A stretch of 64,000 nucleotides of DNA from Mugil cephalus (Eukaryota; Chordata; Actinopteri; Mugiliformes; Mugilidae). The stretch covers positions 5,936,088-6,000,087 of the forward strand of contig NC_061776.1 of NCBI RefSeq assembly GCF_022458985.1, read 5' to 3'. This document shows, piece after piece, positions 31,441 to 53,389 of this stretch. The number at the start of each line of letters is the position of its first letter. The stretch's first letter is position 1. The position numbers and the translations under genes are program-made. The notes below the pieces were generated by a model. It had not been told where the DNA came from and made no database searches. It worked only from the letters and a program-made list of their open reading frames with translations.

Positions 31441-53389
<21,949 letters not shown>

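Follow-up and report, generated by a model that had tools for sequence, protein, structure and literature searches.

A candidate in-frame 18-nt microexon in the cyclin Y gene (ccny) of Mugil cephalus, with a similar candidate in its paralogue

Vertebrates possess a programme of neural microexons, 3–27 nt in length, that depends on SRRM3 and SRRM4. In zebrafish, 191 of 243 neural microexons respond to the loss of srrm3/4 (PMC12626424). Passages of another study report that, of the 95 zebrafish microexons conserved with mouse, 42 are immediately preceded by a UGC and a UC repeat or comparable tract (PMC12626420). The part of PMC5247714 that describes the position of this UGC places it between the pyrimidine tract and the exon, or within the tract. 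Furthermore, excerpts from two other papers attribute long AG-free zones to SRRM4-type targets (PMC8797185) and weak 3′ splice sites to the neural targets of SRRM3/4 (PMC10551640).

Non-neuronal and constitutive microexons form other classes in the MicroExonator scheme (PMC7821500). As set out in passages of that paper, the constitutive clusters of mouse have the strongest splice signals and the non-neuronal ones have high scores, while the neuronal classes have weak sites, almost as weak as those of excluded microexons. The same passages state that microexons are often in frame, and that 23.8% of 1882 zebrafish brain microexons are absent from Ensembl.

According to passages of PMC11734941 and PMC4613515, cyclin Y acts with 14-3-3 as an activator of CDK14 and CDK16; the latter source specifies that activation of CDK16 needs phosphorylation of cyclin Y residues S100 and S326 and binding of 14-3-3. 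Portions of the literature also assign cyclin Y roles in autophagy (PMC7042329) and in neurons, including at the synapse (PMC5328252). A search of open-access main texts, with supplementary tables outside its scope, returned nothing that joins CCNY or cyclin Y to a microexon and no match to the peptide ELPYRN; CCNY together with SRRM4 gave a single paper, on stroke microRNAs. Residues Ser71/Ser73 of cyclin Y were looked for as a CDK14 site in the cyclin Y literature passages and were not found there, and nothing below relies on them.

The window considered here is the whole stretch of 64,000 nucleotides that was analysed, and is part of one contig (C7) of a genome of 635 Mb in 24 contigs. It contains the complete coding region of ccny, whose exon ends were set by hand using homology and the GT-AG rule (Table 1). 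All nine introns are GT-AG, and the spliced product without the candidate microexon has 339 residues. The 345-aa form that includes it aligns end to end with chain 9r2i_D of human cyclin Y at an E-value of 2.4e-196, and this homology takes in both of the flanking exons. As the match runs over the whole length, including the N-terminus, the gene is identified as ccny and not ccnyl1. The solved human chain, the one human sequence compared, is without the six additional residues. On its downstream side, ccny is followed by genes for a Frizzled and a connexin, in an order that fits the human neighbourhood FZD8-GJD4-CCNY.

Further features of the region were observed. Exon 4 of ccny (34999–35093, minus strand) has a very poor donor at 34998 (ATG/gtcgct, score −3.9), which is nevertheless required by the reading frame and by the next exon; it is possibly a regulated site or an assembly error. 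Downstream of ccny, positions 30325–30534 of the window hold a degenerate tandem array of 10.9 copies with a period of about 20 (TCAGAATTCTGAGAATAAAG). Similar stretches at about 33690–34010 (ccny intron 7) and 36540–36690 (intron 2), which were spotted by eye, have agtcatgttttgggctgatc and nearby text in common. A dispersed repeat could account for both, and the stretch in intron 2 is clear of the microexon.

Intron 2 of ccny is 1742 nt long and in phase 1. The candidate microexon lies within it, 1005 nt past exon 2 and 719 nt short of exon 3, and reads ggttgctgtttctttcttttcccag/AGTTGCCTTACAGGAATG/gtgagtag on the minus strand. An earlier note on this DNA had described, at these coordinates, 18 bases with an acceptor, a GTGAGT donor and no stop, and all of these are found there exactly. 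That note also gave the segment the right phase to add ELPYRN between exons 2 and 3, which the rebuilt ccny exons bear out. The segment thus falls within 3–27 nt, is bounded by functional-looking AG and GT sites, keeps the frame and contains no stop. Inclusion is predicted to create the junctions ..AAATGATG-AGTTGCCTTACAGGAATG-TGCGAGAA.. (exon 2, microexon, exon 3), and the skipped and included forms are each open to the natural stop, with the same end. An internal AG in the candidate (TTACAG) would make an alternative, frame-shifting exon of 5 nt possible.

Table 1. Features of the ccny locus and of the paralogous candidate. Positions refer to the window unless another locus is named.
Feature	Position	Strand	Remarks
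ccny coding region, 10 exons plus microexon	31441..53389	−	Complete in window
ccny exon 2 (75 nt), next before the microexon	37082..37156	−	Ends in phase 1
TGC, 5′ of pyrimidine tract	36096..36098	−	At −22 to −20; background frequency, not diagnostic
Acceptor of microexon, AG and pyrimidine tract	36077..36096	−	Pyrimidines at 17 of the 18 positions from −20 to −3; TCTT twice
Candidate 18-nt microexon, AGTTGCCTTACAGGAATG	36059..36076	−	Would add ELPYRN between D76 and V77
Donor of microexon, GTGAGT	36053..36058	−	Score 6.1; hexamer and preceding ATG as in exon 2
ccny exon 3 (35 nt), next after the microexon	35305..35339	−	
Paralogous candidate microexon, 21 nt, TTGCTGTGCCCAACAAGAGAG	L031 7529-7549 (contig C18)	−	Would add VAVPNKR; in frame, open, score 11.0

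In the predicted protein, the insert lies in the N-terminal part, as the earlier note proposed, and ahead of the cyclin fold. Two Pfam cyclin families match residues 155–268 and 171–269 of the long form, some 70 to 90 residues beyond the insert. The six residues ELPYRN are net neutral, include one tyrosine, and precede by 22 residues the serine corresponding to human S100 in the alignment.

Splice sites were scored with a matrix of assumed vertebrate frequencies, which was used for the main ranking, the shuffles, the genome sample and the tests on the paralogue. The candidate reaches a sum of 16.7 (acceptor 10.6, donor 6.1). Its acceptor tops the 10 acceptors scored in ccny, with that of exon 5 next at 10.5, and its donor ties with that of exon 2 and is exceeded only by that of exon 5. 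Among the 11,684 AG..GT pairs of 3–27 nt on the two strands of the window (6168 and 5516), the candidate ranks first. The next in-frame, open pair within the ccny introns has a sum of about 6.4, and the runner-up independent pair of the whole window, of 18 nt on the minus strand at 11202–11219 (TTTTTTAG..GTGAGA), reaches 13.7. A second matrix, built from the nine other donors and nine other acceptors of ccny itself, likewise places the microexon first, at 18.3 versus 12.3 for the next independent pair.

Shuffled sequences seldom attained this sum. Dinucleotide shuffles scored at least 16.7 in 1 of 5000 cases for intron 2, 0 of 600 for the gene and 1 of 250 for the minus strand of the window; block shuffles, pooled over two block sizes, did so in none of 6000 cases for intron 2, one of 800 for the gene and none of 120 for the window with both strands read. 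When the window was shuffled in blocks of 30, the best pair stood at 16.3 at its 99th percentile, and the excess of the candidate over the whole window is therefore clear, yet not huge. Real sequence was sampled as 20 stretches, each of 10 kb, drawn from 20 contigs belonging to the same genome and read on both strands. These held 48 pairs scoring at least 8, about 18 (17–18) scoring at least 10, two scoring at least 12 and none scoring at least 14.

Origins other than splicing were also considered. With as many as three mismatches allowed, the 18-mer occurs nowhere else in the window. No repeat family of intron 2 extends over the exon, the only repeated element being a 14-nt match, present in two copies, within its pyrimidine tract. 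Genome-wide, a degenerate pattern of the exon has a single match, which is the exon itself. Derivation from a repeat or transposon was rejected on these grounds. A structured RNA was rejected because no Rfam family matches the window at gathering score.

A cyclin box search of the genome yielded four loci: ccny in the window, a second ccny on contig C18, near 19.2 Mb, and two loci on C12 and C23. The last two are more distant, and we presume them, from CCNYL1 features, to be ccnyl1-like. Identity to exon 2 of the window gene is 88% for C18, 80% for C12 and 76% for C23. The homologous intron of the C18 gene spans 2662 nt, and the best 3–27 nt pair in it is the 21-nt candidate of Table 1, which would place its insert at the same residue. 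This candidate lies 1078 nt past exon 2, versus 1005 nt for the window microexon, and has an acceptor of ordinary to moderate strength (4.5). In-frame, open pairs as good as this one are expected 0.013 times per intron length; when half-overlapping windows of real sequence of the size of the C18 intron were scanned, 4 of 240 contained an equal pair that was in frame and open, and 11 of 240 contained one in any frame.

The two candidates also resemble one another in sequence. Aligned without gaps and anchored at the donor, their last 15 exonic bases match at 10 positions, which is the best value among the 185 GT sites of the C18 intron; the runner-up matches at 8 and has a poor donor. Elsewhere in the genome sample, 10 of 15 matches were found at 1 of 495 donors scoring at least 3 and at 0 of 123 scoring at least 5, and 311 of 200,000 permutations attained this value, figures that are favourable because the donor-anchored test was picked after the alignment was seen. 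Under local alignment, which is less strict, the evidence is much weaker, as 6 of 82 null candidates and 3 of 28 in-frame ones align equally well. The encoded peptides have diverged (LPYRN versus VPNKR, one identity in five), and the remainder of the two introns shows hardly any alignment. Splice quality and sequence are two independent signs, and both lead to the same site in the C18 copy. It is probable, from these comparisons, that one microexon was inherited by both ccny copies, and the C18 copy would have arisen in the teleost genome duplication.

A counterpart in the ccnyl1-like genes was rejected, as their short introns are without a suitable pair. The best internal pair of the C12 intron (about 350 nt) scores −2.6, and pairs of 8.0 and 3.5 use the donor of exon 2 itself. 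In the C23 intron (about 80 nt), the pairs scoring 4.1 run into exon 2 or exon 3, and the sole non-overlapping pair scores at most −1.8.

These results bear on whether the segment is used as an exon and, if so, where. Chance alone could place two strong sites, an acceptor and a donor, 18 nt apart without their ever being used. The 13.7 pair elsewhere in the window, in a stretch that is not known to contain a gene, and the upper tail of the block-30 shuffles are in keeping with such a decoy. It is made unlikely by the shuffle and real-sequence controls, by the fit of frame and phase, and by the matching candidate on C18. A real exon could be a neuronal one, skipped in other tissues and activated in neurons by SRRM3 or SRRM4 through the UGC upstream of its acceptor. 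The candidate resembles members of that programme in length, GT-AG borders, frame, short insert and the presence of a TGC and a UC-rich tract upstream, and the synaptic roles of cyclin Y would suit such use. The earlier note regarded a TGC about 20 bases upstream as the hallmark of SRRM4 dependence. The triplet is indeed present, but it was rejected as a hallmark because its frequency is that of the background: in the interval −30 to −3, a TGC precedes 377 of the gene's 1350 AGs and 29 of the 92 pyrimidine-rich YAGs that the two strands of the window contain, and ccny exons 7 and 8 have a TGC nearer their AG than the microexon has. Unlike the described arrangement, with the UGC between tract and exon or inside the tract, here the adjoining tract separates the TGC from the exon, and another short run of UC occurs farther upstream, from −47 to −41. 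Also unlike SRRM3/4 targets, the candidate has an AG at −26, which leaves a short AG-free zone, and the top-scoring acceptor of its gene. No TGC was found in the 60 nt upstream of the C18 candidate. UGC placement above background, a long AG exclusion zone and a weak 3′ site are thus all absent from this locus. The zebrafish proportions cited at the outset still leave neural use possible, and we consider the SRRM3/4-dependent version of it somewhat doubtful.

Alternatively, the microexon may be included broadly or constitutively, or in non-neuronal tissues, in which case the main product of ccny would be the 345-aa form. This second version of a real exon is tentatively entertained. As judged from sequence alone, the locus is like non-neuronal and constitutive microexons in its strong signals on both sides and its preserved frame, and the ranks of its acceptor and donor within ccny point the same way. 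Exon definition usually needs assistance at a length of 18 nt, which counts against broad inclusion, as do the short form of the human PDB protein and the merely moderate acceptor of the paralogue. Neural use is possible, and it is backed no better than broad inclusion.

Taken together, the splice-site statistics and the similar, in-frame candidate on C18 make a real, probably duplication-old microexon likely. We regard the segment as very probably a real exon and, with good confidence, as a genuine cassette microexon of ccny. The claim of the earlier note that ccny contains an in-frame microexon is therefore well supported, whereas its SRRM4-dependent neuronal part has no support in the sequence. 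It is proposed that the 18-nt exon would be recognised through its very strong acceptor and donor, and that its inclusion in mature mRNA would insert the six residues ELPYRN in frame. Skipping in some tissues could be brought about by PTBP1-type binding to the UCUU-rich tract, whose TCTT motifs we assume to be PTBP1-like. The extra residues may affect how the N-terminal segment is phosphorylated or binds its partners, and the segment so altered would be the one that, with 14-3-3, controls activation of CDK14 and CDK16.

A wider proposal, to which we give a little less than an even chance, is that the microexon predates the ccny duplication and has kept its place and frame in both copies while its peptide diverged (ELPYRN versus VAVPNKR). 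It would then constitute an uncharted N-terminal splice switch, and tetrapod CCNY may hide a counterpart. More generally, the joint use of splice-site signals and a paralogue can reveal microexons that annotation may miss. If the proposal holds, a six-residue N-terminal splice switch in cyclin Y would be a simple way to tune CDK14 and CDK16 by tissue.
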